64,000 nucleotides of DNA. Source: a bacterium (GTDB taxonomy: Bacteria; Oederibacteriota; Muellerivitia; Muellerivitales; Muellerivitaceae). Each line of letters opens with the position of its first letter. Positions within the stretch are counted from its first letter, which is position 1. The notes under the pieces are model-generated. The model was not told the DNA's origin. It was given only the letters and a program-made list of their open reading frames with translations, and searched no databases. The DNA lies in assembly GCA_035549195.1 (NCBI GenBank), contig DASZRK010000017.1:1-64000 (forward strand), given 5' to 3'. This document shows positions 14,555 through 36,666 of the stretch, piece after piece. Position numbers and translations under genes: made by a program.

Positions 14555-14605
14555 CGGAAAGAGCCTTTTATTGAGGAATGATTTCATGGTCGTTATGATG
14601 GCGAA

Positions 14606-15274: not shown

Positions 15275-15280
15275 ACCGAT

Positions 15281-16101: not shown

Positions 16102-16102
16102 A

Positions 16103-16567: not shown

Positions 16568-16597
16568 TCGAACCTCCTCTCCAGTAAGCCCCCGAAC

Positions 16598-18859
16598 TTA
16601 TTCGGTTCCGGTGTCCGGCTTCTTTAGGAAGAACATCGACTTCACGGTGAAATAAAGCAGTGGCAAAACTCCGCCTACCACGAAGGTCAGGTCACCCACC
16701 ACGCGGGCCCATGTCATCTTTTGCACGACGGGCTGGTTCCAGAAATCCTGGCTGCGGGCGAACCAATAGCCATGGGTATAACTTTGGACCATTTCCAGGA
16801 TCCCGACCGGAAAGATGTCCAACGCGAGCATCAGCATGAGCCCGATCTGAAGCGACCAGAAGGACACCTTGAGGATGCGGTGGGACCAATGTTCCGGCTT
16901 GACCAAGAACCTTAATACGAACAACAGGGCCGCGATGGCCAAATTGCCGTAAACACCCATCAAGGCCGCATGGCCGTGGTTGGGTGTCAGGTAGGTCGCG
17001 TGCTCGTAATAGCTCACAATGGGAAGGTTGATGAGGAACCCGAATATCCCGGCTCCCACGAAGTTCCAGAAACCCACCGCGATCAGGAACATGATGGCCC
17101 AATAGTGGGCGAAGAATCCGTCGGATTCCTTGGTTCCCGCCTCTCCCCGCCTAAGTTTGGCGAAGTCGTAAGCCTCAAGGGTCAGCAAGAGCAGGGGCAC
17201 CACTTCCATGGCCGAAAAGAAGGCTCCCAAGGCCAAATTGATGGCCGGTTGGGCCGTCCAATAGTAATGGTGACCGGTGCCAATGAGCCCCGAACCCAGG
17301 TAAAGGATGATGTCCAGGTAAACAACCCGGACGGCGGTCTGGGTCGTGACCAACCCCAGGATCACGAAGAAATAAGCCACCACGATGGTGGTGAAAAGCT
17401 CAAAGAAGTTCTCCACCCACAAATGCACCACCCACCAGCGCCAGAAGTCGGCGACGGCGAAATTGGTCTTCGGGGTGTAGAGAAGGCCCGCCGAAAACAT
17501 CAAAGGGATGGCAAGGATGGCGTAAACCAGGAGGTAAGGCATGCTTCCCCAATCCTGCCCTTTCAAACGGCCCCAGACCGCACGCAAGACCAGGACGGCC
17601 CAAATACCCATCCCGGCGGTCAAAAGGATCTGCCAAAAACGCCCCAGCTCCAAATATTCCCAGCCTTGGTGTCCCAGCCAGAACCAATATTGGCCTAGCT
17701 TGTCCTTGATCCCCAGGTACTCCCCGACAATGGAACCGACCGCCACCAACACGACGGCTCCAAAGAGCACGTTCACCCAAAAAGCCTGGTATTTCGGCTC
17801 CTTTTTTCCGATGAGAGGGGCCATGAACAATCCCGCCGCTAGCCAGGCCGTGGCCACCCAGAAAATGGAAAGCTGAAGGTGCCAAGTACGGGTGATCGTG
17901 GTCGGGAGAATGTCCCGAATGTCAAAACCGTAAAAACCAGTGGTCTCCACAAAATAGTGCGCCGTGAAGACCCCCATGAGGGTTTGGAAGGCAAAAAGAA
18001 CGGCTACAATTAAGAAATACTTATAAGTGGCGACTTGGCTTGGGGTGATCTTGAAATCCCTCAAGGGAATGCTTTTTTTGATCGCGGGTTCGTCCCCGCC
18101 CCATCCCAGGTAGTCGAACCTGCCGAAGAACATCAGGACGAGCGCGCAACCACCCAAGAGGGAGATAAGGGAGAGAGCGCTCCAAAGGAAGACCGCCTTG
18201 GTGGGGCGGTTGCCGACGGCATCCTCCGGCGGCCAGTTGTTGGTATAGCTGTAATCCGCGTTCGGCCTTTGGGCCGAAGCGGCCCAGGCGGTCCAAGCGA
18301 AGAAATCGGTGAGTTTTTGGACCTCATCGACATTCTTGATGTAGTTCTTAGGCAGGCTTTGATCGCCACCGCCGTTGATGAACATATCCGTGTAAACGGA
18401 CGTCAGTTCCGGCCAAGCCTGGGCTTGCTCCTGGGTGAAGGTCAGGGTTTTCGTCGAGTCGTCATAACGGTTGGCCTTGGCTTCGGCCATCACGGACTGG
18501 TCGATCTGCGCCTTGTCCTTGTCGGCCAGGTCGGCGTATTTCTTCCGGAACCCGGCTTGGGCCTTGATGTCGCGTTGGAGCCAAGCCGAACGGTGCAGGT
18601 AATCATCCGTGAAATCCGGGCCCCGGTAGGCTCCGTGGCCAAAGACCGACCCGTAATCCATCATGCCATATTTTTGGAAAACCGCTTGGCCGACTAAAAT
18701 ATCCTCCCCGGTGAAAAGGACCTTCCCGGAGACGTCCACGACCTTGGCGGGTATCGGCGGGGCGTTTTCATAGACCTTTTTGCCCATGAACATCAAGACC
18801 GAAAATCCGGCGATGACGACGATGACTGCCCAATGGCGCCAAGCTTTTGATATTTCCAA
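16598..18859 (-). CDS. norB: quinol-dependent nitric-oxide reductase (qNor)
   Basis: A 753-residue single-subunit NO reductase, near full family length. The N-terminal helix (14-30) and periplasmic extension (about 30-220) replace the NorC subunit. The catalytic heme-copper-oxidase-like core follows: WHLQLSIFWVATAWL, WEYLELGRFWQILL, VVHLWVENFFELFTTIVVA, GTGHHYYW and PNHGHAALMGVYG hold the histidines for hemes and FeB plus glutamates. It reduces 2 NO to N2O with electrons from the quinol pool. It leads an operon with AhpD-like, hemerythrin and DUF488 genes; a Crp/Fnr-type site lies about 62 bases upstream. No nitrite reductase is nearby, so the role is probably detoxification. Confidence 0.95.
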   Translation of the reverse strand: MEISKAWRHWAVIVVIAGFSVLMFMGKKVYENAPPIPAKVVDVSGKVLFTGEDILVGQAVFQKYGMMDYGSVFGHGAYRGPDFTDDYLHRSAWLQRDIKAQAGFRKKYADLADKDKAQIDQSVMAEAKANRYDDSTKTLTFTQEQAQAWPELTSVYTDMFINGGGDQSLPKNYIKNVDEVQKLTDFFAWTAWAASAQRPNADYSYTNNWPPEDAVGNRPTKAVFLWSALSLISLLGGCALVLMFFGRFDYLGWGGDEPAIKKSIPLRDFKITPSQVATYKYFLIVAVLFAFQTLMGVFTAHYFVETTGFYGFDIRDILPTTITRTWHLQLSIFWVATAWLAAGLFMAPLIGKKEPKYQAFWVNVLFGAVVLVAVGSIVGEYLGIKDKLGQYWFWLGHQGWEYLELGRFWQILLTAGMGIWAVLVLRAVWGRLKGQDWGSMPYLLVYAILAIPLMFSAGLLYTPKTNFAVADFWRWWVVHLWVENFFELFTTIVVAYFFVILGLVTTQTAVRVVYLDIILYLGSGLIGTGHHYYWTAQPAINLALGAFFSAMEVVPLLLLTLEAYDFAKLRRGEAGTKESDGFFAHYWAIMFLIAVGFWNFVGAGIFGFLINLPIVSYYEHATYLTPNHGHAALMGVYGNLAIAALLFVLRFLVKPEHWSHRILKVSFWSLQIGLMLMLALDIFPVGILEMVQSYTHGYWFARSQDFWNQPVVQKMTWARVVGDLTFVVGGVLPLLYFTVKSMFFLKKPDTGTE

Positions 18860-19204: not shown

Positions 19205-19326
19205 CATTATTAAAAGATAAAGCCTCATCCTTTAATAACGATTTGGCTTATTAAAGGATGGTGGTTCTCATTAAAATCATTTTGCACACTAACATTTCAG
19301 ATTTTAAAGTTTAGAAATATTCGATT

Positions 19327-19347
19327 TTGTGTACTAAAAGTACACAA
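19327..19347. promoter_or_regulatory. AbiE operator 1
   Basis: TTGTGTAC and GTACACAA are perfect 8-bp arms around 5 bases. The same arms recur at 19397-19421. AbiEi antitoxins are known to repress their operon through inverted repeats. Confidence 0.75.
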
Positions 19348-19392
19348 TTTAGGATATTTATAAACTTGATGATTAGAACAGTTTATTTAGGT

Positions 19393-19421
19393 TATAATTT
19401 GTGTACCATGAGTACACAAAT
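19393..19421 (+). promoter_or_regulatory. AbiE -10 box and operator 2 over the start codon
   Basis: TATAAT (19393-19398) overlaps a palindrome with 10-bp arms ATTTGTGTAC (19397-19406) and GTACACAAAT (19412-19421). The abiEi ATG (19408) is at its centre, so the mRNA would begin within a few bases of the start codon. Confidence 0.7.
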
Positions 19422-20190
19422 AAAGAACAAATTAAACCAAATCCTAATATCTTGGCTCCATGGAACGGTAGCCACTCAAAAGTGGTTGTCTCAAAAGGGT
19501 GTAAGCCGATTTCTGGCAAGAAAGTATGTAAAGGGTGGCTGGATAAGGCCCATAGGCCCAGGTGCCTTCACACGGGCAGATGATACCGTTCTATGGATAG
19601 GCGGTCTTTACACTATCCAGCAACAGCTCCAACTCCCGATCCATGCCGGTGGCGAAACCGCGTTGAGGTGGCATGGCTATGGTCATACCGCTCCGATCAA
19701 CACGGTTCCTCCGTTATATCTTTTTGGGCCCAAAGGCACGAAACCGCCTTCCTGGTTCCTCAAGCACAAGTGGGCAAATAAGCCCAGGTACCAAACCACC
19801 GACTTTTTGCCCTATAAAAAGGAATTTGGCTTTACCGTCGACAATCAAAGTAATTTTCCATTGACCCTCTCATCTCCTGAAAGGGCTATGTTTGAAACGC
19901 TCTTATTAATGCCGCGTTATACGACCTTTGAGGGCGCGGCCGATTTGATGGAAGGCCTTTCCACATTGCGGCCAGATATGGTGATGGACCTCTTAAAAGC
20001 TTGTAAGTCCATCAAGGTAAAGAGATGTTTCCTTTATATGGCGGAACATGCGAACCATGCTTGGTTCAAAGAGCTAAATCTCTCTAAGGTGAAATTAGGA
20101 AAAGGCAAAAGGGTTGTGGTTCCAGGTGGTTCTTTTGATCCCAAGTACCAAATAACTGTTCCCACTAAAACCCCCGTGAGCGTTCCATGA
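19408..20190 (+). CDS. AbiEi-type antitoxin/transcriptional repressor
   Basis: A 260-residue AbiEi protein, the antitoxin of a type IV toxin-antitoxin/abortive-infection system. The N-terminal winged helix (about 13-55, ATQKWLSQKGVSRFLARKYV) binds operator DNA; the following domain neutralises the toxin. ATG 19408 lies within the second operator palindrome; an upstream in-frame ATG at 19327 would fall in the first operator and is less likely. It overlaps abiEii by 4 bases (ATGA). Confidence 0.87.
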   Translation: MSTQIKNKLNQILISWLHGTVATQKWLSQKGVSRFLARKYVKGGWIRPIGPGAFTRADDTVLWIGGLYTIQQQLQLPIHAGGETALRWHGYGHTAPINTVPPLYLFGPKGTKPPSWFLKHKWANKPRYQTTDFLPYKKEFGFTVDNQSNFPLTLSSPERAMFETLLLMPRYTTFEGAADLMEGLSTLRPDMVMDLLKACKSIKVKRCFLYMAEHANHAWFKELNLSKVKLGKGKRVVVPGGSFDPKYQITVPTKTPVSVP

Positions 20191-21104
20191 GAGATACCGG
20201 CTATTTCAAACAGGCGAAGCTTCTTTTGCAGGTCCTTCCCTACTTTGAAAAGCAAGGTCACTTTGCCTTGAAAGGCGGGACGGCCATCAATCTTTTCTTA
20301 AGGGAAATGCCCAGGCTTTCCGTTGATATTGACCTGACCTACCTCCCTGTTAACCCACGCGATGAAGCCCTATCCAATATCTCGCGGTCACTCAAAGAAG
20401 TGGCCGCCCAGGTGAGGAAGGTTTTGGGGGCCAAAGTAGATGAACAAACCCTTAAAGGGACTGACTACACGGTCAAAATGACCGTCCGACAGGCCGACGC
20501 AACGATCAAGGTAGAACCCAATTTGGTGTTACGGGGATCCATCTATCCCCCTGTCCAAGAAAAGCTTTGCAAAAAAGCTGAAAAGGAATTCGAGTTATCG
20601 GTTTCGACCAAAGTCCTATCTTTAGCTGATATTTACGGCGGAAAGATTTGCGCGGCTTTGGACCGGCAACATCCGAGAGATTTTTTTGACGTTAAACTTC
20701 TTTTGGAAAAAGAGGGACTGACGGATGAAATCCGGCGGGCTTTCGTGGTCTATCTCGCCAGCCATGACCGCCCAATGAATGAACTCCTCAAACCAAAATG
20801 GAAAGACATAAAATCCGTTTTTGAGAAAGAGTTCAAAGGCATGACCCTGGAGCCAGTGGAGTTAAATGACTTGTTGGAAACAAGGGATGAACTTCTTCGT
20901 CTTATTCATAAAGGCTTGAAGGATAAGGAAAAGAAGTTTCTGCTCTCCCTCAAAGATGGCGAACCCGACTGGACCCTTTTGGACTTGCCGAATATCGAAC
21001 GTTTGCCCGGTTTACAGTGGAAGCTGGAAAATATCCGTCGAATGTCTCCCAAGAAACGGCAGGAACAGTCTGTACTTTTACGCAAAGCCTTGAATGAAAA
21101 GTGA
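20187..21104 (+). CDS. AbiEii-type nucleotidyltransferase toxin
   Basis: A 305-residue AbiEii/AbiGii nucleotidyltransferase toxin. Motif I KGGTAINL (29-36), metal-binding DID (Asp47, Asp49 in SVDIDL), Lys153 in LADIYGGKICAAL and the RDFFDV box (164-169) are all intact, so it should be active. Members transfer nucleotides to RNA targets and stop growth during phage infection. It is translationally coupled to the antitoxin. The pair opens the defence block of the element. Confidence 0.92.
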   Translation: MRDTGYFKQAKLLLQVLPYFEKQGHFALKGGTAINLFLREMPRLSVDIDLTYLPVNPRDEALSNISRSLKEVAAQVRKVLGAKVDEQTLKGTDYTVKMTVRQADATIKVEPNLVLRGSIYPPVQEKLCKKAEKEFELSVSTKVLSLADIYGGKICAALDRQHPRDFFDVKLLLEKEGLTDEIRRAFVVYLASHDRPMNELLKPKWKDIKSVFEKEFKGMTLEPVELNDLLETRDELLRLIHKGLKDKEKKFLLSLKDGEPDWTLLDLPNIERLPGLQWKLENIRRMSPKKRQEQSVLLRKALNEK

Positions 21105-21529: not shown

Positions 21530-21619
21530 TCGGGGGAAGGCCTTCCCCCTGGCCTCGGCTTCCCTCTGGGCGATCCTCGGCACACCCCCTTCTCCTGGGG
21601 CTTCGCCCCAAACCCTTGC
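21530..21619 (+). repeat. module-boundary repeat R1
   Basis: An 18-base perfect palindrome GGGGGAAGGCCTTCCCCC (21532-21549), then a shared ~40-base core with ACCCCCTTCTCCTGGGG and a GGGGC/GCCCC hairpin. Similar sequences follow the stop codons at 23340 (R2) and 24706 (R3). Confidence 0.8.
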
Positions 21620-21691: not shown

Positions 21692-22363
21692 ATGCCCATC
21701 ACAGATGCGGAAAAGCAAATCCGTTTTCGGAAAAAAGAGGCATTGAAGCGACAAGCTGAAAATGCTTTCAAACACCTACAGCTTAGCCTGGGGCTCCATA
21801 GGCAACATAAAACTCCGCAAGAAATCAAGATCGTCTTGGACCAGGCGATTGAGCTGCCTTCCGGATGGACAGACGAGGACTATGTTCGAGCGCAACAAAA
21901 GCTCCAACAGATCTTCCACGACATTGTTTCAATGCCTGATGAGTTGAAGAACGATGTGGACGAAGGAGCGTATCCCTCAAATAAGTTCAGGACCACACCT
22001 GATCCAATGGGATTCATAAAAGAAGAAAAGTTAGGTGTGGAAAAAACACGAGCGCTGGCCTCTCACCTCATTTCAGCCCTCAATCTTTCCAACTGCAACG
22101 ACGCTGAAAAAGCCGCGGCGGTCCTGGAAGCGGTGCGTACAGTTGGCAGGACTGTGGCAAACCAACAGGAAGTTCCCCGGTCAGCTGCCACGGCTGTTTG
22201 TCTTGCGACCTTGGGGCCCCACTATGAGAGGCCGAAGTGGTTTGCAAAGCGTATGGCCAAAGCTCTTATAAGTCAGCTTGATCAAAAATTAAGTAAGGAA
22301 TTAGGCCACCTCCTCATTGAGCAGAACCGAAACCTTTTTTTTGAAGACGAGGGTCTTTCGTGA
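21692..22363 (+). CDS. unknown partner of HNH nuclease
   Basis: A 223-residue soluble, largely helical protein beginning MPITDAEKQIRFRKKEALKR. No domain is recognised. AGGAGACAGGC precedes the ATG, and upstream GTTAC/GTAAC repeats (about 21648-21681) may be an operator. Its stop overlaps the GTG start of the HNH gene (GTGA), so the two are made together and probably work together. It could be an immunity, regulatory or DNA-targeting partner. Confidence 0.7.
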   Translation: MPITDAEKQIRFRKKEALKRQAENAFKHLQLSLGLHRQHKTPQEIKIVLDQAIELPSGWTDEDYVRAQQKLQQIFHDIVSMPDELKNDVDEGAYPSNKFRTTPDPMGFIKEEKLGVEKTRALASHLISALNLSNCNDAEKAAAVLEAVRTVGRTVANQQEVPRSAATAVCLATLGPHYERPKWFAKRMAKALISQLDQKLSKELGHLLIEQNRNLFFEDEGLS

Positions 22364-23340
22364 TCGGCGTCCGACCTTACGATTACCGCAGGAAGGTTGA
22401 ATGCATTTACGGAGGAGATCGGTACACCGTCCGGGACAACGGGGCCGTCTTTCGTCATGCCAAGGCGGGCAAACGCCCTCGCAAAGCCGATGAACGATGG
22501 ACTTTTGGCAGACCGAATCCAAAAACGGGTTACATGGAGATCGCCTCCGTCCGCGTTCACAGGATCGTCGCAACCGCGTTCCACGGCGAGGCGCCCTCGC
22601 CGCAGCACGTGGTCGACCACATTGATACAAATAGGAGAAACAACCGGCCCGAGAACCTTCGGTGGCTAACAAAGTTAGAAAATGTGCTTCAAAATCCCCT
22701 CACTGTTAAACGCATCGAGTATGCCTTTGGTAGTATCGATAATTTCCTAAATACACCTCCGGAACAGAGACGGAACGACGGTAAACAAAATTTTAGCTGG
22801 ATGCGGCCTGTCAATCCCAAGGAAGCACGCACAAGCTACCAGCGCTTGCTCGATTCCGCTGAAAATGACAAGCCTCTACCTGGGGGGCCGTTGGGTGAAT
22901 GGGTCTTTCATAAAGAAGTGTCCGTCGAGGGCGTTGAAGAATTGTCGGAAGAAATTCCAGCGATAACCTTGAACGCCGTGCAGAGGAAATGGCGAACACC
23001 TTGCGAATTTCTTTGTTGCCCGGAGGACGCGGGAGAAACACCAATATCTTCCTATGCACAACGGCTTACTTTGGGCTGTGTTTTTTCCCGAAATGAATTT
23101 CAAAAATCCATAGTCGAGCAATTTGCAGTTTCTCAAGACGGTAAGTCGCTTTGGGTGATGTGTTGCTTTGAAGGAAAATCCTTGAAGCCTTGGACACTTG
23201 CCCAAGTTACATTTGAAGATGGGCAGTTTGTTCACACGAATTTGGGGAGTTTTTTCGGCCAAGATGGGGCCGAGAAGCAATATTGTTTAGCACAGGGTAA
23301 AGAATGGACAGGAGGAGATACTTTTGATGATTTCTGTTGA
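22360..23340 (+). CDS. HNH endonuclease with unknown C-terminal domain
   Basis: A 326-residue protein. The N-terminal half resembles NUMOD4/HNH-type phage and homing nucleases: VDHIDTNRRNNRPENLRW (85-102) holds the HNH metal-binding core (Asp86-His87, Asn95). Residues 150-326 are an unrecognised domain containing Cys219 and the Cys-Cys pair 224-225. GTG start overlaps the upstream stop. With its partner it forms a two-gene unit flanked by repeats R1 and R2, inside a defence block; an anti-phage or selfish nuclease function is possible. Confidence 0.78.
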   Translation: MIGVRPYDYRRKVECIYGGDRYTVRDNGAVFRHAKAGKRPRKADERWTFGRPNPKTGYMEIASVRVHRIVATAFHGEAPSPQHVVDHIDTNRRNNRPENLRWLTKLENVLQNPLTVKRIEYAFGSIDNFLNTPPEQRRNDGKQNFSWMRPVNPKEARTSYQRLLDSAENDKPLPGGPLGEWVFHKEVSVEGVEELSEEIPAITLNAVQRKWRTPCEFLCCPEDAGETPISSYAQRLTLGCVFSRNEFQKSIVEQFAVSQDGKSLWVMCCFEGKSLKPWTLAQVTFEDGQFVHTNLGSFFGQDGAEKQYCLAQGKEWTGGDTFDDFC

Positions 23341-23341: not shown

Positions 23342-23426
23342 CGGGGGGAAAGCCTTCCCCCTGACCTCAACTCCCTTCGGTGATTTTCGGCTCACCCCCT
23401 TCTCCTGGGGCTTTGTCACAAACCCT
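23342..23426 (+). repeat. module-boundary repeat R2
   Basis: It starts 2 bases after the HNH gene stop. It has GGGGGAAAGCCTTCCCCC and the core TCACCCCCTTCTCCTGGGG also seen in R1. Confidence 0.8.
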
Positions 23427-23523: not shown

Positions 23524-23616
23524 ATGAACATAAACTTGTATGGCGACATTTCCAGAGAATCGCCATCCGTGAAACTCAGTTTTATTGAATGGAAATATTT
23601 TGGGCCAGATGATTAA
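23524..23616 (+). CDS. possible 30-residue leader peptide
   Basis: A short frame (begins MNINLYGDIS) whose stop at 23614-23616 lies 3-8 bases past the ATG (23609) of the membrane protein gene. The overlap would allow coupled translation. Upstream is a GAAA-loop hairpin that includes its ribosome-binding site. No family is recognised. Confidence 0.35.
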   Translation: MNINLYGDISRESPSVKLSFIEWKYFGPDD

Positions 23617-24706
23617 CCTTTTTAAATTTATTTGGGCAAAAAAAATCCAACATATCCTTCTGTTTATTTCATCTTTAATTTTATATGTCTGTTCCTTTTA
23701 CCCTGAATTCATAAAGATTTGGCCCATCTATGTGACGATTGGGCTATTTGCAATTGCTACATTGGTGAATATTTTTGCGGCTAATTATCCTTCCTTTATC
23801 GAATCAATAAAAAACAGAGATATTCAAAGAGGAATAGAAAAGCTTAAAGAACAAGCATCCGCAGATAAAACAATAATTTCAGAATATGAACAATTGAAAT
23901 CATTACTCTCGAAATTTTTAGATAGTTCGGGTGTTTACCGCGAAAAAGTAATTGATCTTCTAAATTTAAATGAAGATTACCTTTGTATAGCCAAAAGTTC
24001 TGAAGGGATGGGAGACGCATTTGAAGATAATGACAAGCAAATGCTTCCGTTTTCAAAAGTGTTGTTTGAATGGCCTGGATCAATAAAACCTTTTGAAAGA
24101 ATGACTTTATATTTAATACCTGTTAAAAATCTTCCTGGATTAAAACGTAATAATCTTCGGCAATACATCAACAAGGTAATAATTCCAAAAGTGCAGAAAG
24201 AACGAGTCAATTATTTAAAGAACGTAAAAAAGAAAATAGCAAAAGCTGTCCAGGAACTGGCTTATAAATATGTAGCTTACTTTATTAAGGGGAACGAGAT
24301 AGTTTTCGAAACAAAAAATAGAAAATTTATAAAAAAATTTGTAGATGCTTTCATTAAAACGGATAGTAAACGGGACATTGTTAAATATACGAGGGCGTTA
24401 AGTGATGTTATAGGGTTAAAAGAGTTTTTCTTAAGGGTTGAATGGGATGCATTCTCTGACCTTAATTTTGGTCAACAGCAGTTGGTAGAAGCAAATAAAA
24501 GTAAAATTTACGACGGGTTGAAAAAAGCGGACATTCACTCCCTTAGAGAGATGTATTTGGCTGGTGAAGAAAAATTATCGAAACTTTTGATGAAAATACT
24601 GGGAAATAAAATAACTCAAATTAGAGCGATCAATATTTCTAAAAAATTAGTTAGAGGCGCAAAAAATGTCTTGGATATATTAGAAAAAGCCGGGATTCGA
24701 GTTTAA
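23609..24706 (+). CDS. membrane-anchored protein of unknown function
   Basis: A 365-residue protein from ATG 23609; a TTG at 23585 would add 8 residues. Two N-terminal membrane helices (about 10-28 and 35-55) anchor a long cytoplasmic Lys/Glu-rich region predicted helical. No enzymatic motif is visible. Coding is strongly AT-rich compared with the core. It is bounded by repeats R2 and R3, so it behaves as a single exchangeable module. The architecture (two helices plus cytoplasmic sensor-like domain) occurs in membrane-acting defence effectors, but this is only analogy. Confidence 0.65.
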   Translation: MINLFKFIWAKKIQHILLFISSLILYVCSFYPEFIKIWPIYVTIGLFAIATLVNIFAANYPSFIESIKNRDIQRGIEKLKEQASADKTIISEYEQLKSLLSKFLDSSGVYREKVIDLLNLNEDYLCIAKSSEGMGDAFEDNDKQMLPFSKVLFEWPGSIKPFERMTLYLIPVKNLPGLKRNNLRQYINKVIIPKVQKERVNYLKNVKKKIAKAVQELAYKYVAYFIKGNEIVFETKNRKFIKKFVDAFIKTDSKRDIVKYTRALSDVIGLKEFFLRVEWDAFSDLNFGQQQLVEANKSKIYDGLKKADIHSLREMYLAGEEKLSKLLMKILGNKITQIRAINISKKLVRGAKNVLDILEKAGIRV

Positions 24707-24710: not shown

Positions 24711-24762
24711 TCCTCCGGTAATCCTCAGCACACCCCCTTCTCCTAAGGCTTTGCCCCAAGCC
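24711..24762 (+). repeat. module-boundary repeat R3
   Basis: A shorter copy: it lacks the GGGGGAAGG palindrome but keeps the core CACACCCCCTTCTCCT and GGCTTTGCCCCAAG. It begins 5 bases after the preceding stop codon. Confidence 0.75.
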
Positions 24763-24818
24763 ACGAAGAAAAGAGACCCTGAGAATAAAACATCAAAATA
24801 TTTAAAAAGGAAAAGACT

Positions 24819-25634
24819 TTGGAATTTGAAAAGCCTAGTTTTGGAAAAATGATATTGATCTCAATATTTTCGTTCGCAATTACATTCCTTTGCGGCCTAA
24901 GTTTTACATTTTCTTATGGTTGTGTGGTCGGAAAAAATACTATGCAAGAACCTGGTTTTTTGGCCGCTATTTTCACGATTCTAGTTTCAGAACTAGGTTA
25001 TTTAGCTGGTGGATATGTTTTCGGGACATTGTCCAAGGACACTTGGAATGGATGGATTAAAGCAATAATACTCATTGGGCCGAATCTTCTTTTTCGAGGT
25101 GCAACATTTGCTTTAGCTTTTTACAACATGGATTTACAACAAGAGTTGTTGGCATCAAAAGTAAATCTAATTGTAATTCCAGCATTAACTATGGTGTTGT
25201 CGCCATTTGTCGCATATTTCGCCATTGGATTGGGTGAGTCCTCCGCCGAAAAGTATAGTCATCCAAAATCCATCCTGAATATTGATTGGTACCATTGGAT
25301 ATGGATTCTTCCTTTTTATATTTTTTCTGCGGCGGGCGTGCCATCGTTTTTGCTGTTTGCCTTATGGAAATTTGACTCTTTAACGGATTTAGATAGTTAT
25401 CCTTCAATCATCACAATATTCACTCACTTCCCGACCTTCATTACTCGATTGATCATTCTCGCTGTAATAGGGTTGGCGTTTTTTAGCATCGAAACTGTTT
25501 ATTCCACGTTAAGTGATCGAACTTCAAAGAGCGGCCTATCCGCTGGGGTAAAAGTGTTTTTGAATTGGTTAATTCTAACGATCTTTGAGTGCATGATCTT
25601 GCTTTCGTTCATGGGGCAGATGTTGAAGAAGTGA
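24819..25634 (+). CDS. seven-helix membrane protein, unknown
   Basis: A 271-residue integral membrane protein with about seven hydrophobic segments (roughly 11-33, 48-72, 82-104, 113-136, 149-173, 198-225, 243-266). TTG start preceded by AAAAAGGA. No family is recognised and no catalytic motif is obvious. It is first of three genes with short spacing (27 bases, then a 4-base overlap), which suggests one complex. Its AT-rich codon use matches its neighbours. Confidence 0.65.
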   Translation: MEFEKPSFGKMILISIFSFAITFLCGLSFTFSYGCVVGKNTMQEPGFLAAIFTILVSELGYLAGGYVFGTLSKDTWNGWIKAIILIGPNLLFRGATFALAFYNMDLQQELLASKVNLIVIPALTMVLSPFVAYFAIGLGESSAEKYSHPKSILNIDWYHWIWILPFYIFSAAGVPSFLLFALWKFDSLTDLDSYPSIITIFTHFPTFITRLIILAVIGLAFFSIETVYSTLSDRTSKSGLSAGVKVFLNWLILTIFECMILLSFMGQMLKK

Positions 25635-25661
25635 AATCCTAAATGGAAACGTCCGAAAATT

Positions 25662-28217
25662 ATGAGATACAAGTTATTAATTTTTCTAAATCAATTTAAA
25701 ACATACTGGAAGATACGCACTTATTTATTCCAGATCAAATTTAGGCTGGTTAAATATTTTTACAAAACAGAAAATTCGTTCGAAGAAAATTCAGCAAGAT
25801 TCAATATCGCTAAAGCCTTATTGAGAAAATCTCTTTGGCCTTTATGTTTGGCAATCTTTACTTGTCTTCTCTTTTGGAAATTAAGTGAAATATTCTGCTT
25901 CAATTCAATTCCTGTCACGTCGCATGACTCTTTCTCGGATACATATAACACCTTATTGGGAACAATCGCTGGTGTAGGAGGACTTTTTATTGGTTTGTAT
26001 TACAACGGCCTAACGGCCGTGGGCACCGCGATTTATTCTAAAACTCCAAATAATATTCGAGACTTACTTGCCAGGGAAAGAACTGGTAGTACGTATATGG
26101 GTTATTTGTCTTATGTAACCTTCTTTGCGCTCGGTTTAATAGCGATGAATATGTTTGGATTAGGCCCTTTGCGATTGGCCGCCTTATTTATGGTTTTATT
26201 AGCCGGGGTCGGAATTTTCGTATTTGTGGCTTTGGGCCAATCTGCTTTCAATTATTTTGATCCCACAGAGTTATCAAAGACGTTCATATTCGAGCTCCAA
26301 TCCTCATTTAAAAAAGTCACAACTTCTGGATTCTTTTTTAAAGACCCATCAATTCAAAATCATTTAAATAAAGTAACATCGGCGGCCATATCCACCCTAA
26401 AAACTTTGACGGACATCATTGAAAAACAAGAGCACTTAAACGGGCAATCGTTTTTTGATTTTTCAAAAATGATTGTTCGACTTTTGATTTATTATCAAAA
26501 CCAAAAGAAACGCATACCGACAAAAAGTTTTTGGTACGATTTAAAATACCAGCATCCAGATTGGTACACCTCCGACTACACGAGTGTCGAATTAGCACAA
26601 AACACTGGCACTTCTATCTCACCTAAGAGTGTTCAAGATAACTATTGGCTAGAAAATGATTTACTTACGATTCCGATTAAATGTTTTGAAATAAACTTAA
26701 AAGCAAAACGTTTAGAGTTGGCAATCGATGTTGTTAGGTTAATTAATCATTATTTAAAAGCATTGGCAGAAAATGGTGAGGTTAACACTGCTTTGGATTT
26801 AGTTGAACGATTATTAAAAATCCATTCTGAAAATTTAGGGGAAGTATCGCCAGGCAAAGAGGAGTCGGTTAAAGAAATAGCAATTTTTGAAACTCTTTTG
26901 ATCCTCAAGGCTGAGATACTTATCGCTTTTTCTGCTGAAACGCAGAAGTTGTCTCCTGAGAAAATCTCAGAACGAATTAAAAAAATTGAATGGGTTGATA
27001 GCAAATCGATTTATTCAACCAATTTTCCTCCAAATTTATTGGCCGATCTCGAATGGCTCCAAAAGACAATATTATTTGAGCTTGATTGTGAGGGAGAAAT
27101 ATTGAGCCCGCAATGGTATCAAGCCGAATTAGTAATATTGTTTCATGCGCAAAAAATTAATGAAAACATTGATTGTTTGTTCAAAAGATCAAAAACACTT
27201 AAGAGCAAAAATTTAAAAGACCTCTCGTTGCAGAAAAGACCATGGCACTTGAGTTGTTTTATTAGTCATGAGTTGGAGTATATAAATAAAACCTATGCTC
27301 ATTTTTCGAGACTGAGCGAGGTTTGGAAATCGCTAATCGAAAAACGGCATATTAAAAAATTGCCCTGGCCAAAATTGGAATTTTCTAATCTGTTTTCGGA
27401 TCTTGACTCTCAGAAAAAAGAGTTAATTAAGATGTTGCCACAAGCAGTGAAATCACTAAGTCCTTTTAAAAGAACGGAAGAGTTCCCGGATTATTTAGGT
27501 CAGTTTTTAAATTTAATGGGAGAAAGTATTCTCGAATACTGCACCGAAAATAAAATGGATTTAGCTAACGAGTTGTATCCCGGGTATTTCGAAGGATGTA
27601 TTTTAAAGTTTGGCCAATTATTTCCTGACTCTTCGTTGGAGGGCAGAAACTTTGAAAATGCTTATACCCTTGCATGCGGACCAATTTTGGAACTGATAGA
27701 ACTGAGCGGATATGTGAAGCTGTTCTCTGAGTATTACGGTAATGATTCTTCTTGGGATGTAATTAAGGATATTTGGGATAAATATCTTTCTGACCAAAAC
27801 GCACCTAAAAAAATGGAATCACTCGCGAGTATTTTGAGATCGGATGAACAAAACCCTGGTTTATCTCCGAGCAGTTTACACAGGACTGGCTGGTCTCAGA
27901 TGACATACAGATTTTTAAGAGAAAATGTAATGAAAGCCTTTCGACAAAGAAAATCCATACCAGGGGTTGTTGATTTTATTAGACCGGAAGAAATCGCGTT
28001 ACATCAAAGTCCATTAGTACGAATATTTTCAGAGGGGGATTTTAGTTGTTCTTTCGATGGAGGCCATATTTTTATCTCCGAATATCTTTTAAAACGTGCA
28101 GATTCCAAGGGTGTTAATTTTAAAGGGAGCTGGAAGGATCTTACGGAAGCTATTAAGAGAGAAGCCAAAAACAATACCTTTGTCAAAGATGAGTTGAAAA
28201 AGCGAGAACAAGCATGA
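25662..28217 (+). CDS. large membrane protein with helical cytoplasmic domain
   Basis: An 851-residue protein. About four membrane helices lie between residues 58 and 200, including a glycine-rich pair (LLGTIAGVGGLFIGLYYNGL and ALGLIAMNMFGLGPL). Residues 210-851 are a long, mostly helical soluble region with no recognised catalytic motif, suggesting a repeat-like or scaffold fold. The next gene overlaps it by 4 bases. Together with the seven-helix protein and the 326-residue partner it forms the largest unexplained operon of the element. Confidence 0.7.
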   Translation: MRYKLLIFLNQFKTYWKIRTYLFQIKFRLVKYFYKTENSFEENSARFNIAKALLRKSLWPLCLAIFTCLLFWKLSEIFCFNSIPVTSHDSFSDTYNTLLGTIAGVGGLFIGLYYNGLTAVGTAIYSKTPNNIRDLLARERTGSTYMGYLSYVTFFALGLIAMNMFGLGPLRLAALFMVLLAGVGIFVFVALGQSAFNYFDPTELSKTFIFELQSSFKKVTTSGFFFKDPSIQNHLNKVTSAAISTLKTLTDIIEKQEHLNGQSFFDFSKMIVRLLIYYQNQKKRIPTKSFWYDLKYQHPDWYTSDYTSVELAQNTGTSISPKSVQDNYWLENDLLTIPIKCFEINLKAKRLELAIDVVRLINHYLKALAENGEVNTALDLVERLLKIHSENLGEVSPGKEESVKEIAIFETLLILKAEILIAFSAETQKLSPEKISERIKKIEWVDSKSIYSTNFPPNLLADLEWLQKTILFELDCEGEILSPQWYQAELVILFHAQKINENIDCLFKRSKTLKSKNLKDLSLQKRPWHLSCFISHELEYINKTYAHFSRLSEVWKSLIEKRHIKKLPWPKLEFSNLFSDLDSQKKELIKMLPQAVKSLSPFKRTEEFPDYLGQFLNLMGESILEYCTENKMDLANELYPGYFEGCILKFGQLFPDSSLEGRNFENAYTLACGPILELIELSGYVKLFSEYYGNDSSWDVIKDIWDKYLSDQNAPKKMESLASILRSDEQNPGLSPSSLHRTGWSQMTYRFLRENVMKAFRQRKSIPGVVDFIRPEEIALHQSPLVRIFSEGDFSCSFDGGHIFISEYLLKRADSKGVNFKGSWKDLTEAIKREAKNNTFVKDELKKREQA

Positions 28218-29194
28218 AATTTAGAAAGCCATTTACGGAAAATCCACGTGAGCAATTAAAGCAAAGTCTTAAACCGCGGATGGCCAATTATTTCCAAAGC
28301 TTACAAGGAACATACTCGCCGAGATTATATGAACAGTTCTTTTCCGAAGATTTGCGAACCGGAGTGATGCCCTATGGTTTTGAATTGGGGCGAGAAAATA
28401 ATCAAATTCTTGCTACCTTTGAAGGCTCTGATGAAGAGAACGAAAAGGCTATAAATCTACTTTCCGATTTTTGCGAACATGAACCTCGAAATGAAACCGA
28501 TTTAATTTGCAAAGCGGTAAATGAAATTTCTCAAGATGTTAGCTGGGAAGGAAGGGCGGTATATGAAATTCTTAAAGGCATTAACAATAAAGGGAAGGCG
28601 GAATTTTACGTTCACCAATTTTACCGTGCGAGAACAATCAAAGTGCCATTTTACAAGTATTTTCAAATTGTCCCCAAGCTGGACAGGGAATATTTGAAGG
28701 CGAAATATCTATCGTGCCCCGTTGAGGATGTTTTTGAAATTACCATTCCAAGTCGTTTAGGCGGTTACAAACGGTATAAAAATATTTTGAATGAACTTGC
28801 AAAATATTCTGGAGTGGGCCCTGGTTTTTTCCGACAAGATCCATATCAGGAATTAACAAAGGGTTTTGACTTCGGGGACTATCGGCGTAATCAAATGGTT
28901 TTTGGGTTTTCAATAACGCGAAAGTGGGGTTGGAATTACAGAAATCTTGCTAATGAGTACGAGAACGAATTTTTTAAAGTCCACAAATACATAACTTTTA
29001 AATGGGCCCAAGCAATTCTTCGGGACCATATTATTTCTGAACTAAATGAATTACTGATCAGGTTGAGAATTGATTCGAAGTTTAAAATCGAAGGTTTACT
29101 TAAGCCGAGTGAAATACTAGAAGTCAGAGAAAAATTGAAAAATGGAGAAATTGATTTTGAGGAGGTATTTAAAAAACTTAAATACCAAGATTAA
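28214..29194 (+). CDS. cytoplasmic partner protein, unknown
   Basis: A 326-residue soluble protein without recognised domains, rich in aromatic and charged residues (for example GFFRQDPYQELTKGFDFGDY). Its ATG overlaps the stop of the 851-residue gene, so the two are translationally coupled. Its end overlaps the convergent stop of the minus-strand gene by 4 bases. A role as the sensor or regulatory subunit of the membrane system is plausible but unproven. Confidence 0.68.
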   Translation: MKFRKPFTENPREQLKQSLKPRMANYFQSLQGTYSPRLYEQFFSEDLRTGVMPYGFELGRENNQILATFEGSDEENEKAINLLSDFCEHEPRNETDLICKAVNEISQDVSWEGRAVYEILKGINNKGKAEFYVHQFYRARTIKVPFYKYFQIVPKLDREYLKAKYLSCPVEDVFEITIPSRLGGYKRYKNILNELAKYSGVGPGFFRQDPYQELTKGFDFGDYRRNQMVFGFSITRKWGWNYRNLANEYENEFFKVHKYITFKWAQAILRDHIISELNELLIRLRIDSKFKIEGLLKPSEILEVREKLKNGEIDFEEVFKKLKYQD

Positions 29195-29634
29195 TCTGGG
29201 TTGGAGTGATCCCAATGCGCAACCCAAATTATCCCTGCTAAAGAAAGCAAAAAGGGAACCACAATACCTGCTCCGATTTTCTTCAATTCTTCAAAATCCT
29301 TTAAATCAACCCACTTCAACAAAGCCATTAGACAAACGGAAAAAGATGCAAGCGAACAACCCAACAGTGCGATCCAACACCATTTAGCGGCAGATTCTAC
29401 TCGGGTTAACATCCTCTCGTTGTCATAAAGGTATGTGAAAACCTTTGGCAGAGAATCACAAGTAACCGTTTTATTTCCTTTGTTTATTTCTTTAACTTTC
29501 TCGTTGAATGCACCTCTAAGTCTTGCAATCTTTCCAATGGCACCTTTAATAATGAAATGCCGAAGTGTCAAAGCGATTCCAAAGCAACCACCTGCAAAAG
29601 TAAGCCATGACATTGGGTTTATAGGATCGATCAT
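29191..29634 (-). CDS. small membrane protein with coiled region
   Basis: A 147-residue protein starting MIDPINPMSWLTF. There are three hydrophobic segments: residues about 8-27, 75-97 and 117-138. A Lys-rich segment between the first two could be cytoplasmic. The ATG overlaps the stop of the zinc-ribbon gene (ATGA), so the two form an operon. It ends convergently against the 326-residue gene. The family is not recognised. Confidence 0.6.
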   Translation of the reverse strand: MIDPINPMSWLTFAGGCFGIALTLRHFIIKGAIGKIARLRGAFNEKVKEINKGNKTVTCDSLPKVFTYLYDNERMLTRVESAAKWCWIALLGCSLASFSVCLMALLKWVDLKDFEELKKIGAGIVVPFLLSLAGIIWVAHWDHSNPD

Positions 29635-29942
29635 TTTTTGGGCCCTACATGACGATCGTTTTCCTCCGAGGCTGCTCCAGCAAGAAGACCCAACAAGCCA
29701 CCAATTATTGCACCTGGTGGGCCCCCAATTGCCCAGCCAAGCAAGGCTCCCCCGCCGGCCCCTGCAACTGGTCTTGCGCCAGGAGAAGGGGTAGACACAG
29801 TTCTTTTTAAAGTCATTTGCCCACAATAGGGGCATCGGACCAAATTGGGCAGGGACAATAAAATCTTATAACCCTTAGTTGATGAATATTGGCAACTAGG
29901 ATTTTGGCAGTTGTATTCGAATTTATTTTGATTTTCAGTCAT
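29631..29942 (-). CDS. zinc-ribbon glycine-zipper membrane protein
   Basis: A 103-residue protein. Two Cys pairs, NCQNPSC (11-17) and RCPYCG (about 36-41), form a zinc-ribbon-like domain. The C-terminal half is a Gly/Ala-rich hydrophobic stretch (GGALLGWAIGGPPGAIIGGL) like a glycine-zipper membrane insert. Such inserts occur in pore-forming or membrane-disturbing small proteins. It is the first gene of the minus-strand pair. Confidence 0.62.
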   Translation of the reverse strand: MTENQNKFEYNCQNPSCQYSSTKGYKILLSLPNLVRCPYCGQMTLKRTVSTPSPGARPVAGAGGGALLGWAIGGPPGAIIGGLLGLLAGAASEENDRHVGPKK

Positions 29943-31093: not shown

Positions 31094-33964
31094 ATGATCC
31101 GCCTATCATGGAATGAAATTCGTGACCGTGCCCTTAAATTTTCGGGGAACTGGAAAGATGTATCTAGCGAAGACGGCGAAGCGCAAACATTTTGGAATGA
31201 ATTCTTTGAAATTTTTGGAATAAGAAGACGAACCGTCGCTTCTTTTGAAGAGCCTGTTCGTACCATCAAGGGAAAATATCACTTTATTGACCTGTTTTGG
31301 AAAGGCGTTCTATTAGTCGAACACAAATCAAAAGGCAAAGACTTAAGCAAGGCGTCATCCCAGGCCTTTTCCTATATCCAAGACCTGGTTAATGAAGGCC
31401 GTGAAAATGATATCCCTCGCTTCGTAGTCATATCCGATTTCTCACGATTTGTTATCTACGACTTAGAAAGCGACCCTTCCCTTCTCCCTTCCAAAAAAGT
31501 TCCAATAGAACTATCCGAAAGCCCAGCTACTTTTGGGTCTCAAGAATTTCAGCTAAAGGATTTAAATAAGAACATTCGTTCTTTTGCCTTTTTGCGAGGT
31601 GAAAAGCCAGTCAAAAGGAACCCGGAAGATCCAGCCAATATTGAAGCAGCTGAAATCATGGGGAAACTTCATAAGGCGCTAGAAAGCGGTGGGTTCGAAG
31701 GTCATGACCTGGAAAGGTTCCTGGTTCGTATTTTGTTTTGCCTGTTCGCAGAAGATTCTCTTGTATTTGAGCCTAATTTATTCTCCCAATTCATCCTCAA
31801 TCATACCCGTGAAGACGGGTCCGATCTTGGTTCACAACTTAACCGACTTTTCGAAATATTAAATACTCCGGAGACTACTCGTCAAAAATCATTGGATGAA
31901 GATTTGGCATCTTTTCCATATGTAAATGGCGACCTGTTTAAAGAAAGATTAGCCTTTGCCGATTTCAATAAACAAATGAGGGATGCTTTAATTTCTTGCG
32001 CGAAATTCAATTGGAGTCGTATTTCTCCGGCCGTTTTCGGCTCCATGTTTCAATCGATTATGGAAAAAGCAGAGAGACGTGGTCAGGGAGCGCACTATAC
32101 AAGCGAAGCAGACATTTTAAAAATTGTTCGCCCTTTGTTCTTGGATGATCTTTACATCGAATTTAATACGATTAAAAACGACCGTTCTTCCAGACGCCAA
32201 GGCCGCTTTGAAGATTTCCGAAAGAAGTTATCCGGGTTGAAGTTTTTAGACCCGGCTTGTGGCTGCGGAAACTTTTTGGTTATTACGTATCGTGAGTTAA
32301 GACTTTTAGAATTGGAAGTTCTTAAAGAAGCTTTTGCCGGGCAAATGGATCAAATGGTATTGAGTTCTGAGGATGTTTATAGGCTTTCGCGAGTAAATGT
32401 TGATCAAATGTTCGGCATTGAACTTTCAGAATGGCCAGCACGCATTGCAGAAGTCGCCCTTTGGCTTACAGATCACCAAATGAATCAAGAAGTTTCGAAT
32501 GCTTTTCATCAGTTATATATTCGAATTCCTTTAAAACAATCTCCCCATATCAAATGTGCAAACGCTCTTAATTTCGATTGGACTGAATTACTGCCAAACA
32601 CAGAATGTAGCTTTATTTTAGGAAATCCTCCTTTTGTTGGCAAAAAGGCCAGAGACAAAAATCAACAAAACGACATGGAAAAGGTATTTGGAAAAGGCGA
32701 TGGTTCAGGTGTTCTAGATTATGTTTGTTGCTGGTACCGGAAGGCCGCCGAATACATACACAATACAAAAATAGGAGTTGGTTTCGTTTCTACCAATTCG
32801 ATATCCCAAGGAGAACAACCAGGAATCCTTTGGCCTACTTTATTTGGAAAATATGGTCTTAAAATTTGGTTTGGCTACCGCACTTTCCCGTGGGAAAGCG
32901 AGGCAAAAGGAAAAGCAAATGTTCATGTTGTAATCATTGGTTTCGGTGCTTTCGAGAGGAAACCCAAATACATTTTTGAGTTGTTGGATGAAAAAGAAGG
33001 ATTCCTTCGTACCGAAGTTAGCAATATCAGCCCATATATTTCCGAAGGGCCTGACACAGCCATAGAAGAAAGAAAGACTCCTATAAGCCCAAATATCCCC
33101 GAGATGTATTTCGGTAACATGCCTAATGACGATGGAAACTTCCTTTTAACCAATGATGAAAAAGATGATTTAATAAAAAAGGAACCAAAAGCAAAAAAGG
33201 TTATTCGCCCATTTTTAAGCTCGAAAGAATTTCTCAGGAATATCCCCAGATGGTGCATTTGGCTTAAAGATATCGAACCAAACCTAATAAACGATTTAAA
33301 AGAGATTAAAAACAGAATTGAACTAGTAAAAAAGTATAGATCGGAGAGCGACCGAGAAGCGACTCGAAAGCTCGCTGCTTACCCGTCATTGTTTGGAGAA
33401 ATTCGACAACCAAAAACATCTTTCGTTCTTGTTCCGAGGCATAGTTCCGAAAATCGCAGATATATCCCAATGTCCTATTTTGGGCCAGAAAATATTGTTG
33501 CTGATAGTTGTCTTTTTCTTCCTGAAGCCACTTACTTTCACTTTGGAATATTGAATTCAACAATGCACATGGCATGGGTAAGACAAATTTGCGGGAGATT
33601 AGAAAGTCGATACAGGTACTCTGTTGGTTTGGTTTATAACAACTTCCCTTGGCCAGAGAATCCCAATGAGAGGCAACAAGAGAAAGTTGAAGAAGCTGCG
33701 AAGGCTGTCCTTGCTGCAAGACAATCACATCCAACTTCTAATTTGGCCGATCTTTATGACCCATTAAGTATGCCATCCAATTTGAATAAAGCTCATGCCG
33801 AGTTAGATAGAGAAGTAGAAAAATGTTATAGAAAGGAACCTTTTGAAAGCGACCGAAAGAGGTTCGAGTTTCTTTTTGATTTGTACCTCAAAGCCCGGAG
33901 CCCATTGGTCTCGGAACCAATCGCAGGGAAAATAGTTTCAAGAAAACGAAAAAAACAACATTGA
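31094..33964 (+). CDS. MmeI-like type IIL restriction-modification enzyme
   Basis: A 956-residue single-chain restriction enzyme and N6-adenine methyltransferase. The N-terminal PD-(D/E)XK nuclease has Asp66 and Glu76-His-Lys78 (LLVEHKSKG). The methyltransferase follows, with SAM motif I LDPACGCGNF (Asp386) and catalytic motif IV NPPF (511-514). The target-recognition region is about 620-850 and a helical C-terminal domain ends the protein. MmeI-type enzymes methylate one strand for protection and cut about 20 bases from the site, needing no separate methylase. All motifs are intact. Coding is AT-rich relative to the core. Confidence 0.93.
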   Translation: MIRLSWNEIRDRALKFSGNWKDVSSEDGEAQTFWNEFFEIFGIRRRTVASFEEPVRTIKGKYHFIDLFWKGVLLVEHKSKGKDLSKASSQAFSYIQDLVNEGRENDIPRFVVISDFSRFVIYDLESDPSLLPSKKVPIELSESPATFGSQEFQLKDLNKNIRSFAFLRGEKPVKRNPEDPANIEAAEIMGKLHKALESGGFEGHDLERFLVRILFCLFAEDSLVFEPNLFSQFILNHTREDGSDLGSQLNRLFEILNTPETTRQKSLDEDLASFPYVNGDLFKERLAFADFNKQMRDALISCAKFNWSRISPAVFGSMFQSIMEKAERRGQGAHYTSEADILKIVRPLFLDDLYIEFNTIKNDRSSRRQGRFEDFRKKLSGLKFLDPACGCGNFLVITYRELRLLELEVLKEAFAGQMDQMVLSSEDVYRLSRVNVDQMFGIELSEWPARIAEVALWLTDHQMNQEVSNAFHQLYIRIPLKQSPHIKCANALNFDWTELLPNTECSFILGNPPFVGKKARDKNQQNDMEKVFGKGDGSGVLDYVCCWYRKAAEYIHNTKIGVGFVSTNSISQGEQPGILWPTLFGKYGLKIWFGYRTFPWESEAKGKANVHVVIIGFGAFERKPKYIFELLDEKEGFLRTEVSNISPYISEGPDTAIEERKTPISPNIPEMYFGNMPNDDGNFLLTNDEKDDLIKKEPKAKKVIRPFLSSKEFLRNIPRWCIWLKDIEPNLINDLKEIKNRIELVKKYRSESDREATRKLAAYPSLFGEIRQPKTSFVLVPRHSSENRRYIPMSYFGPENIVADSCLFLPEATYFHFGILNSTMHMAWVRQICGRLESRYRYSVGLVYNNFPWPENPNERQQEKVEEAAKAVLAARQSHPTSNLADLYDPLSMPSNLNKAHAELDREVEKCYRKEPFESDRKRFEFLFDLYLKARSPLVSEPIAGKIVSRKRKKQH

Positions 33965-34809: not shown

Positions 34810-34869
34810 CCTGGCGGGGACCGCCAGGAAGTGTGGAACGGAGGCGGTCTCCGGAAAGCCAGGTGCGGT

Positions 34870-36666
34870 ATGTCAAACGACTCGAAGCTGAGCTTCAACC
34901 AGATCATTTGGATGGTTCTAACTCCTCCCCTCTTTTTCCTGGTCATTGACCTCCTGCGATATCTCGCGGGGTTCGATGGCTCCTCCAGTTTCATCGGGAA
35001 TATCCCCCTCAATGTCATCCGGCCCCCGATGTTCCTCTTCCTGCTTTCCTGCCTTCCCTACCCGACCGCCTTCTATTTCCGCCATAGCGACAAAATATTC
35101 TTCATCACCAAGGTGGCTATTAGTTTGTCTGTGGCCATTGACCTTCTCGAATACGTCGCCCCTGAGTACGGCCTCCCCTATTGGGTGGGCTTAAGTCTTT
35201 TGACCATCCTGGGAACCTGGGGTCTCGTTTGGAAAGCGGATGTCGGGAGAAAACCGGACGCGGGACCTTATCCCCTGACCGTGGACAAGGCGGGCCGGAA
35301 AGGATTCCCGACCGACTCCCTCCATATGAACGTCCAGATCGTGGGCGGAACGGGAACCGGCAAGACCCATTTCGTCATCAAACCCTTCATTGAGCAGACC
35401 ATCCATCAGGGCTTGGGATGCTTCGTCTTTGACGTGAAAGGAAACTTACGTCGGGACGTGGCTTACTACCTGAAGACCTCAAGTTATTCAGGCCGCAAAG
35501 GCCTCCTCTACTTTGACGTGGACGATCCACGGGGCTCCGATACCTACAACCCCCTTTACGGTTCCAACCCCGACGCCATCGCCAACCGGGTCTTCACCGC
35601 CCTCTATTACGACAATACCCGGACGGAACCCTATTACGTGGAATTGGGCAAGGCTTTCCTGCACAACCTGGTGGGACTCCTGAAGAAGGAGATCAAGACC
35701 CTGACCTTCCTGGACCTGCTCCTGGCCACGGAGGAGACGGACACCTTTCGAACCATCCATTGGTTCTGCGCCAAACACCCTGATACCCCCTACGCGAGGT
35801 ACTTCCGCAACCAATGGCTGACGAAGCCCGGCAAACAGCGCCAGGAAGAGCTGTCGGGCTTGGTGACCAAGCTCCAGCGCTTCTGCAACAGCGAGTGGGC
35901 CCATCTCTTGAACGTCCGGGACCCCAACATCCGCATGGAGGACGTCGTGAAGAACGACCGGATCTTCCTCTTCTCCCCCAACGCGGCGAAATACCCCGAC
36001 GACGCCAAGCCGCTCTCCATCCTGGCCATGATGGACCTCTCCGAACAGGTCGCCGACCGCTACCGGAACCGACCCGAGAAACCCTTCCGGGTCTTCCTGG
36101 ACGAGTTCTACAACCTGGCCTATCCCCGCTTCATTGACTTCATTAACAAATGCCGTGAAGCGAAAGTGAACCTCTTTTTGGCCCACCAATCCCTGGGGGA
36201 CTTGAGCGGGATATCCCAGGAGTTCCTGGAGCAGGTCATGAACACGGCCCGGAACAAGATCGTCTTGGGGGTGGACGACCCGGCAACGGCGGAACACTTT
36301 GCCCGGCAATTCGGGACCGAACTGGACCAGGACTACCAAGTGGAATCCTTCAAGTCGGACGGGACCATGGCGGGCTATTCCAAACCCAAGGTGGAGAAGT
36401 TCCGGTTCCACCCCAACCTCATCAAGGCCTTGCGGCCCGGCGCGGCCATCGTGAAGGTGGTGGGAACGGCGGGGGTCCACATTTTTGAGGCCTCCCTGAG
36501 ACCGGCTTCCCCCGTCCCGGAGACCTATGAGCCTGGGGCCTCCCATTTCCGCAGGTCGGGGGGCTTGGTGAACGAAAGCTCCCTGGAAGAGGTCATGAAG
36601 CCCAAACCCTGGGACAAGCCCCAGGAGAGGAAGGACGGCGGCATGGGGGACGAAAATGCGGCCTGA
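34870..36666 (+). CDS. VirD4/TraG-family coupling ATPase
   Basis: A 598-residue membrane ATPase. Three to four N-terminal helices (about 15-115) precede the P-loop: Walker A GGTGTGKTH (159-167, Lys165) and Walker B FRVFLDEF (Asp411-Glu412). TraG/VirD4 proteins bring the relaxase-DNA complex to a type IV secretion channel. ATG 34870 with AGGTGCGGT is preferred to a GTG 39 bases upstream. The following gene overlaps by 11 bases. No mating-pair genes are in the element, so it would need a helper channel. Confidence 0.87.
   Translation: MSNDSKLSFNQIIWMVLTPPLFFLVIDLLRYLAGFDGSSSFIGNIPLNVIRPPMFLFLLSCLPYPTAFYFRHSDKIFFITKVAISLSVAIDLLEYVAPEYGLPYWVGLSLLTILGTWGLVWKADVGRKPDAGPYPLTVDKAGRKGFPTDSLHMNVQIVGGTGTGKTHFVIKPFIEQTIHQGLGCFVFDVKGNLRRDVAYYLKTSSYSGRKGLLYFDVDDPRGSDTYNPLYGSNPDAIANRVFTALYYDNTRTEPYYVELGKAFLHNLVGLLKKEIKTLTFLDLLLATEETDTFRTIHWFCAKHPDTPYARYFRNQWLTKPGKQRQEELSGLVTKLQRFCNSEWAHLLNVRDPNIRMEDVVKNDRIFLFSPNAAKYPDDAKPLSILAMMDLSEQVADRYRNRPEKPFRVFLDEFYNLAYPRFIDFINKCREAKVNLFLAHQSLGDLSGISQEFLEQVMNTARNKIVLGVDDPATAEHFARQFGTELDQDYQVESFKSDGTMAGYSKPKVEKFRFHPNLIKALRPGAAIVKVVGTAGVHIFEASLRPASPVPETYEPGASHFRRSGGLVNESSLEEVMKPKPWDKPQERKDGGMGDENAA

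Follow-up and report, generated by a model that had tools for sequence, protein, structure and literature searches.

A mobile gene pair joining a membrane protein to a protein of predicted portal-like fold, found repeatedly beside defence genes

Three tightly spaced genes on a bacterial integrative element, here called g1, g2 and g3, were predicted from their position in a block of defence genes to form an undescribed and perhaps membrane-acting anti-phage system. This raised the question of which of the three genes belong together, how widely they occur and what their products might do. We addressed it in the window (the whole 64,000-nucleotide stretch of DNA that was analysed) and by searches of bacterial, archaeal, plasmid and phage sequences, coupled with structure prediction.

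The locus and its host element

All three open reading frames were found where the original prediction had placed them, with the 27-base gap followed by the ATGA overlap, starting right after repeat R3 and lying between AbiE and the MmeI-type enzyme (Table 1). Their AT-richness was borne out (36–38% GC over the g1–g3 stretch versus ~60% in the flanks). Hydropathy gave seven hydrophobic segments in g1, the number of helices claimed for it, and none in g3. For g2, where four helices had been proposed, a strict cut-off left only two clear N-terminal segments, whereas transmembrane (TM) counts on its homologues ranged from three to five and were mostly four. The assignment of the region to an integrative element is supported by the integrase next to tRNA-Ser and by the TraG/TraD-like coupling protein; the element has a low GC content (~35–50%) in a genome of ~60%. 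A repeat of the tRNA end, which would fix the element's other boundary, was searched for and not found.

Table 1. Coordinates of the genes, of the matched parts of g3 and of neighbouring features in the window
Feature	Position	Strand	Description
AbiEi–AbiEii pair	19327–21104	+	Neighbouring defence genes
R3	24717–24764	+	Third copy of the intergenic repeat, upstream of g1
g1	24819–25634	+	271 aa, TTG start, seven-TM protein
g2	25662–28217	+	851-aa membrane protein; 27-base gap after g1
g3	28214–29194	+	326-aa soluble protein; ATGA overlap with g2
g3 residues 94–177	28493–28744	+	Helix and strands in portal-wing order; approximate mapping
g3 residues 190–250	28781–28963	+	Short segment at the place of the portals' stem, clip and tunnel loop; family-specific W-G-W-N-x-R
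g3 residues 252–322	28967–29179	+	Long helix, strand and two helices; matches the portal C-terminal wing/crown end
MmeI-type type IIG restriction-modification enzyme	31094–33964	+	Neighbouring defence gene
TraG/TraD-like coupling protein	34831–36666		
Integrase	38120–39226		Adjoins tRNA-Ser
tRNA-Ser	39263–39349		Beside the integrase

Several other features of the window were recorded. R3 belongs to a GC-rich, partly palindromic intergenic repeat present in three copies (21532–21616, 23344–23426 and 24717–24764), each of which precedes one of the successive gene blocks of the element; elsewhere in the genome, a fourth copy, 89% identical, lies on a separate contig (G000 contig C75:132967-133055), and the repeat is perhaps a small mobile or terminator-like repeat that marks insertion points. 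Bounded by R1 and R2, at 21692–23340, a 223-aa protein without known family overlaps a 326-aa HNH endonuclease (HNH_3). Between R2 and R3 lies a gene for a protein of 373 aa (23585–24706) that has two TM segments near its N terminus and fits no family; it was not seen at the other g2–g3 loci. The start of AbiEi holds nested inverted and direct repeats (19291–19437; TTTGTGTACT...AGTACACAA), which are probably the AbiE operator. Convergent with g3, on the minus strand at 29191–29942, a small protein has zinc-ribbon-like cysteines and matches a glycine zipper below threshold; a 214-aa open reading frame without assignment overlaps it. A NorB-type nitric oxide reductase, two hemerythrin-like proteins and a Crp-type regulator adjoin the element at 13733–18859, likely as a nitric-oxide response block.

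Linkage, distribution and neighbours of the pair

The original prediction treated all three genes as one unit. A co-occurrence search upheld this for g2 and g3, which are adjacent in the same order and on the same strand, with g3 directly downstream, at all 17 distinct loci found (the window included), and which overlap by 4 bases in at least 13 of the 17; it did not do so for g1, which was found at none of the other g2–g3 loci. A plasmid search likewise gave no homologue of g1, and no credible one was seen in 45 genomes of the phylum, where the matches were short, broken or marginal. Because g1 is missing at every other locus, it has to be left out of the unit, and the three-gene operon was ruled out as such. 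We conclude that g1 is probably co-transcribed with g2–g3 in the window while standing outside the conserved module; support for it as a real gene comes from length and hydropathy alone. Both g2 and g3 are conserved over their full length at ~30% identity in other phyla, which excludes them as chance open reading frames. The pairwise identity matrices of the two proteins across loci are correlated (r = 0.94, permutation p 0.0005), and this correlation and the strict pairing show a shared history of g2 and g3, which almost certainly constitute a conserved two-gene unit. No neighbouring gene is common to all of the loci, and repeat R3 is not part of the module elsewhere.

The loci are spread over Pseudomonadota, Bacillota, Poribacteria and plasmids. 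In a tblastn search of plasmids, g2 had full-length relatives (29–30% identity) in Burkholderia glumae and Paenibacillus. Ten loci more, from Beta- and Gammaproteobacteria, a Peptococcaceae bin and Poribacteria, came from an alignment-based scan that covered bacterial and archaeal genomes, and a further four from genome sampling. Pseudomonas fluorescens FW300-N2E3 and a Paraburkholderia are among the carriers, and the pair sits on plasmids, one of them conjugative, as well as on an ICE-like integrative element. Among related genomes, the pair occurred in 1 of 368 others from the class of the Pseudomonas carrier, in none of 299 other Pseudomonas genomes, in 1 of 299 others from the family of the Paraburkholderia carrier and in 4 of 85 from the phylum of the Poribacteria carriers; in its own phylum it was seen in this genome only, among 45. 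E. coli genomes gave no match in a DNA-level search, in which only near relatives would show. The g2 proteins of a Betaproteobacteria bin and the Peptococcaceae bin are 66% identical, closer to each other than either is to the other loci, a pattern that points to transfer from one phylum to another or to a short contig placed in the wrong bin. Across the samples, the pair is rare, patchy and horizontally spread among phyla and plasmids. No relative of g2 or g3 was found among 50,697 phage genomes, nor when the window's own g3 was also searched in these phage records, and IMG/VR scans, which depend on short patterns, found neither gene.

Flanking genes were compared at 16 of the 17 loci, leaving out L006, a 4-kb contig. 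Strong defence neighbours were present at seven of the 16 and weaker ones at three further loci, in a plain tally rather than a test against matched controls. Besides AbiE and the MmeI-type enzyme in the window, the strong neighbours were a type III restriction-modification system (L158) or a type IIG-like enzyme (L161) directly upstream of the pair, a type IIG enzyme and an HKD/Snf2 helicase with a PDC-S15/FRG-domain gene downstream (L169), DRT1a and an AAA protein (L168), a type I HsdM and an HNH protein (L167), and two genes matching PADLOC TmtA models (L170). The weaker ones were VapC (L004), a PIN-domain gene (L164) and a weak DzbB match (L002). At the remaining six loci, several of them chromosomal, there was no defence gene among the neighbours examined. 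Two details of these flanks are noted separately: at L170 (4399–7733), from the phylum of the Poribacteria carriers, the TmtA-type gene beside g2–g3 is apparently split into two open reading frames (498 and 570 aa), and at L168 (13110–15980), in a Burkholderiaceae genome, a VgrG gene (type VI secretion) lies directly downstream of g2–g3, on the opposite side from DRT1a.

Family searches and predicted structures

As had been noted from the window itself, none of the three proteins has a recognised family; no curated family matched g1, g2 or g3. Searches of Pfam, PADLOC, PHROGs and NCBIfam gave no significant match for g2 or g3, and these searches ruled out a known defence system. A housekeeping transporter was also rejected, there being no family match and no homologue in the phylum outside this genome.

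The earlier reading did not see what structure prediction points to, namely a phage portal fold in g3. An AlphaFold2 model of g3 built from 11 sequences (mean pLDDT 81, pTM 0.81) was compared with the PDB by Foldseek, and the top 50 matches were all portal, connector or neck/tail-complex entries (best E 1.6e-4, prob 1.00; nine at ≤0.001). Against the BFVD viral library, the best match had an E of 6.7e-5 (prob 1.00) and nearly every named match was a portal. TM-scores to portals were 0.4–0.5 with large rmsd, which would mean that the model superposes on a portal in part only or has its domains placed differently. We take the conserved sequence of g3 to recall portals, and one g3 relative of 11 gave a sub-threshold portal match in PHROGs (E 0.52, residues 92–174). 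Pfam gave no portal match for g3, and hhalign of g3 against HK97-like and P2-like portal sets assembled for this analysis was not significant, with scores inside those of reversed and shuffled controls; proof of portal kinship from sequence was thus not obtained. The missing sequence match is weak evidence against kinship, because a sequence search with the G20c and lambda portals likewise missed the whole HK97-like set. With TM-scores in this range and no significant profile match, the resemblance we claim is structural alone, and at that level g3 probably has a portal-like fold.

The portals of HK97, G20c/P23-45, lambda, R4C and HFTV1, which supply nearly all of the top structural matches, seem to share with the predicted g3 both a wing-type helix-strand layout and a C-terminal helix-strand-helix end. 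A permissive alignment with HK97 is co-linear, setting g3 103–135 against the G-N-A-Y-A region, ~167–190 against the final strand of the wing with the beginning of the stem helix, and 252–322 against the C-terminal end; the G-R-A-x-Y-E-I region of g3 falls opposite F-Y-G-N-A-Y-A of HK97 in an alignment that is of low confidence and agrees in element order. The stretch that holds stem, clip and tunnel loop is ~115 residues in HK97 versus ~60 in g3, where it has no predicted strand and lower model confidence. W240 and R243, invariant in the g3 family, lie inside this 190–250 segment, and the invariant E252, H272 and N278 lie in the 252–322 part that contains the long helix. In g3, then, a short WGWNxR segment appears to replace the portal stem and clip. 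Small size alone would be insufficient for this reading, as phi29-type portals of ~300 aa have a clip (PMC8703570); the proposed clip loss in g3 rests on element spacing in the model. Unlike phage portals, g3 is without a significant sequence match, carries the W-G-W-N-x-R segment where the stem/clip appears shortened and replaced, is paired with a membrane protein and has no relative found in phages. It also comes without a terminase or capsid module, since no neighbour is common to the loci.

In the model of g2, a helical domain at the N terminus leads into a long alpha-solenoid of ~600 residues, which is predicted with good confidence. A strongly conserved core lies in the N-terminal TM domain (GG-x-FIGLYY...Y-x-K-x-P-x-x-x-R-x-LL). 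The best matches in a structure search were generic solenoids, none significant at 0.001, and no known effector fold was among them. The TM domain had no Pfam match, DUF2254 (PF10011) included. In a profile–profile comparison, it aligns in order with the DUF2254 membrane proteins, scoring 34.3, whereas 20 block-shuffled controls gave ≤26.2 and reversed controls 14.5; the probability is only 8.5% and no C-terminal domain is shown in common, so we treat this similarity as a lead only.

A candidate function and its rivals

With a membrane component, conserved linkage of g2 and g3, repeated occurrence beside defence genes and no known family, the proposal of an undescribed system held up, with its gene boundary drawn wrongly. 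We consider that g2 and g3 form a mobile two-gene module that probably has a defence role. The predicted portal fold changes the likely mechanism. The best explanation we can offer, to which we give somewhat less than an even chance, is a mobile, likely anti-phage module that senses phage head assembly through g3 and has g2 as its membrane effector. Here g3 would be a captured phage portal turned into a host sensor or bait; with the portal-like part host-encoded, the obvious roles for it are those of bait, mimic or ring. Phage portals bind terminase and tail by the clip and contact the capsid by the wing (PMC10359639), from which we propose that g3 may have given up its functions in packaging and at the tail and acquired a separate docking face. 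It would engage phage head-assembly parts that normally touch the portal wing (capsid, scaffold or portal subunits), and a g3 ring, or a complex of g3 with phage parts, would activate g2 through the cytoplasmic solenoid. Acting from the inner membrane, g2 would open a pore or disturb the membrane and so stop infection late, in the style of abortive infection. The specific mechanism is tentative throughout, and its trigger and membrane effect are pure inference; that a domesticated, clip-reduced portal acts in immunity as the bait or sensor that drives an always co-encoded membrane effector seems to us rather doubtful. The six of 16 flanked loci without obvious defence neighbours count against the best explanation as a whole, and TM-scores below 0.5, large rmsd and profile scores inside the shuffled null against its portal part.

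Portals as immune triggers have precedent by analogy. Through its clip domain, the portal YonE activates SpbK, a protein whose gene lies on an integrative and conjugative element (PMC12847820), and PDB entry 8dgf, retrieved in the structure search with g3, is Avs4 bound to a phage portal. Both systems link a portal to defence, as g2 and g3 would; they recognise the phage's own portal, whereas here the portal-like protein is encoded by the host. Literature searches for portal-like defence proteins and for the accessions of homologues gave nothing relevant. Membrane abortive-infection systems, such as Zorya and CBASS effectors, resemble g2–g3 in combining a membrane protein with a cytoplasmic partner among defence genes, and differ in that the pair matches no PADLOC model and is without an ATPase, nucleotide cyclase or nuclease partner.

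The main rival to sensing is exclusion, in which a portal-like g3 ring seated on an inner-membrane g2 ring would block or destroy entering phage or plasmid DNA. In its favour, portals form DNA-conducting rings, g3 seems to keep the wing-like part, the clip seems replaced by a conserved family-specific motif that could be a g2-docking face, g2 is a membrane protein, and plasmids and an integrative element carry the pair; however, there is no nuclease or ATPase motif, the channel-lining stem helices look shortened and oligomers are without support, and we judge exclusion unlikely. We also think it improbable that the portal likeness is convergence or partial domain similarity, with g3 being an ordinary adaptor or enzyme that acts together with g2, possibly still in defence. 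The low TM-scores and the lack of a profile signal above the shuffled nulls speak for it, as would a site absent from portals if W240, R243, E252, H272 and N278 form one, but portals make up almost the whole of the match lists from two independent libraries, element order agrees over most of g3, and portals of different phage groups miss each other by sequence as well. A non-defence role, for instance in DNA transfer or mobile-element maintenance by a membrane complex whose genes drift into islands with defence genes, is quite unlikely: the plasmid and ICE-like carriage and the several chromosomal copies without a defence gene in the stretch examined are consistent with it, yet no conserved transfer or replication genes stand beside the pair and strong defence neighbours are frequent (7/16). 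A remnant of a prophage, tailocin or gene-transfer agent, suggested by the fold of g3, was ruled out as highly improbable by the phage and IMG/VR negatives, by the lack of an accompanying terminase, capsid or tail module (no neighbour being common to all loci) and by the constant partner g2, which is not phage-like.

Whatever the mechanism, g2–g3 is an undescribed gene pair linked to defence genes, with two new protein families to be named, and neither the libraries nor the literature covered by our searches describe such a composition. The 17 divergent examples would offer a defined pair on which the idea of a host-encoded portal-like sensor or ring can be examined. If the preferred reading, with g3 as sensor of head assembly and g2 as membrane effector, is true, a stable two-gene system would have redirected a core part of the virion against phages.
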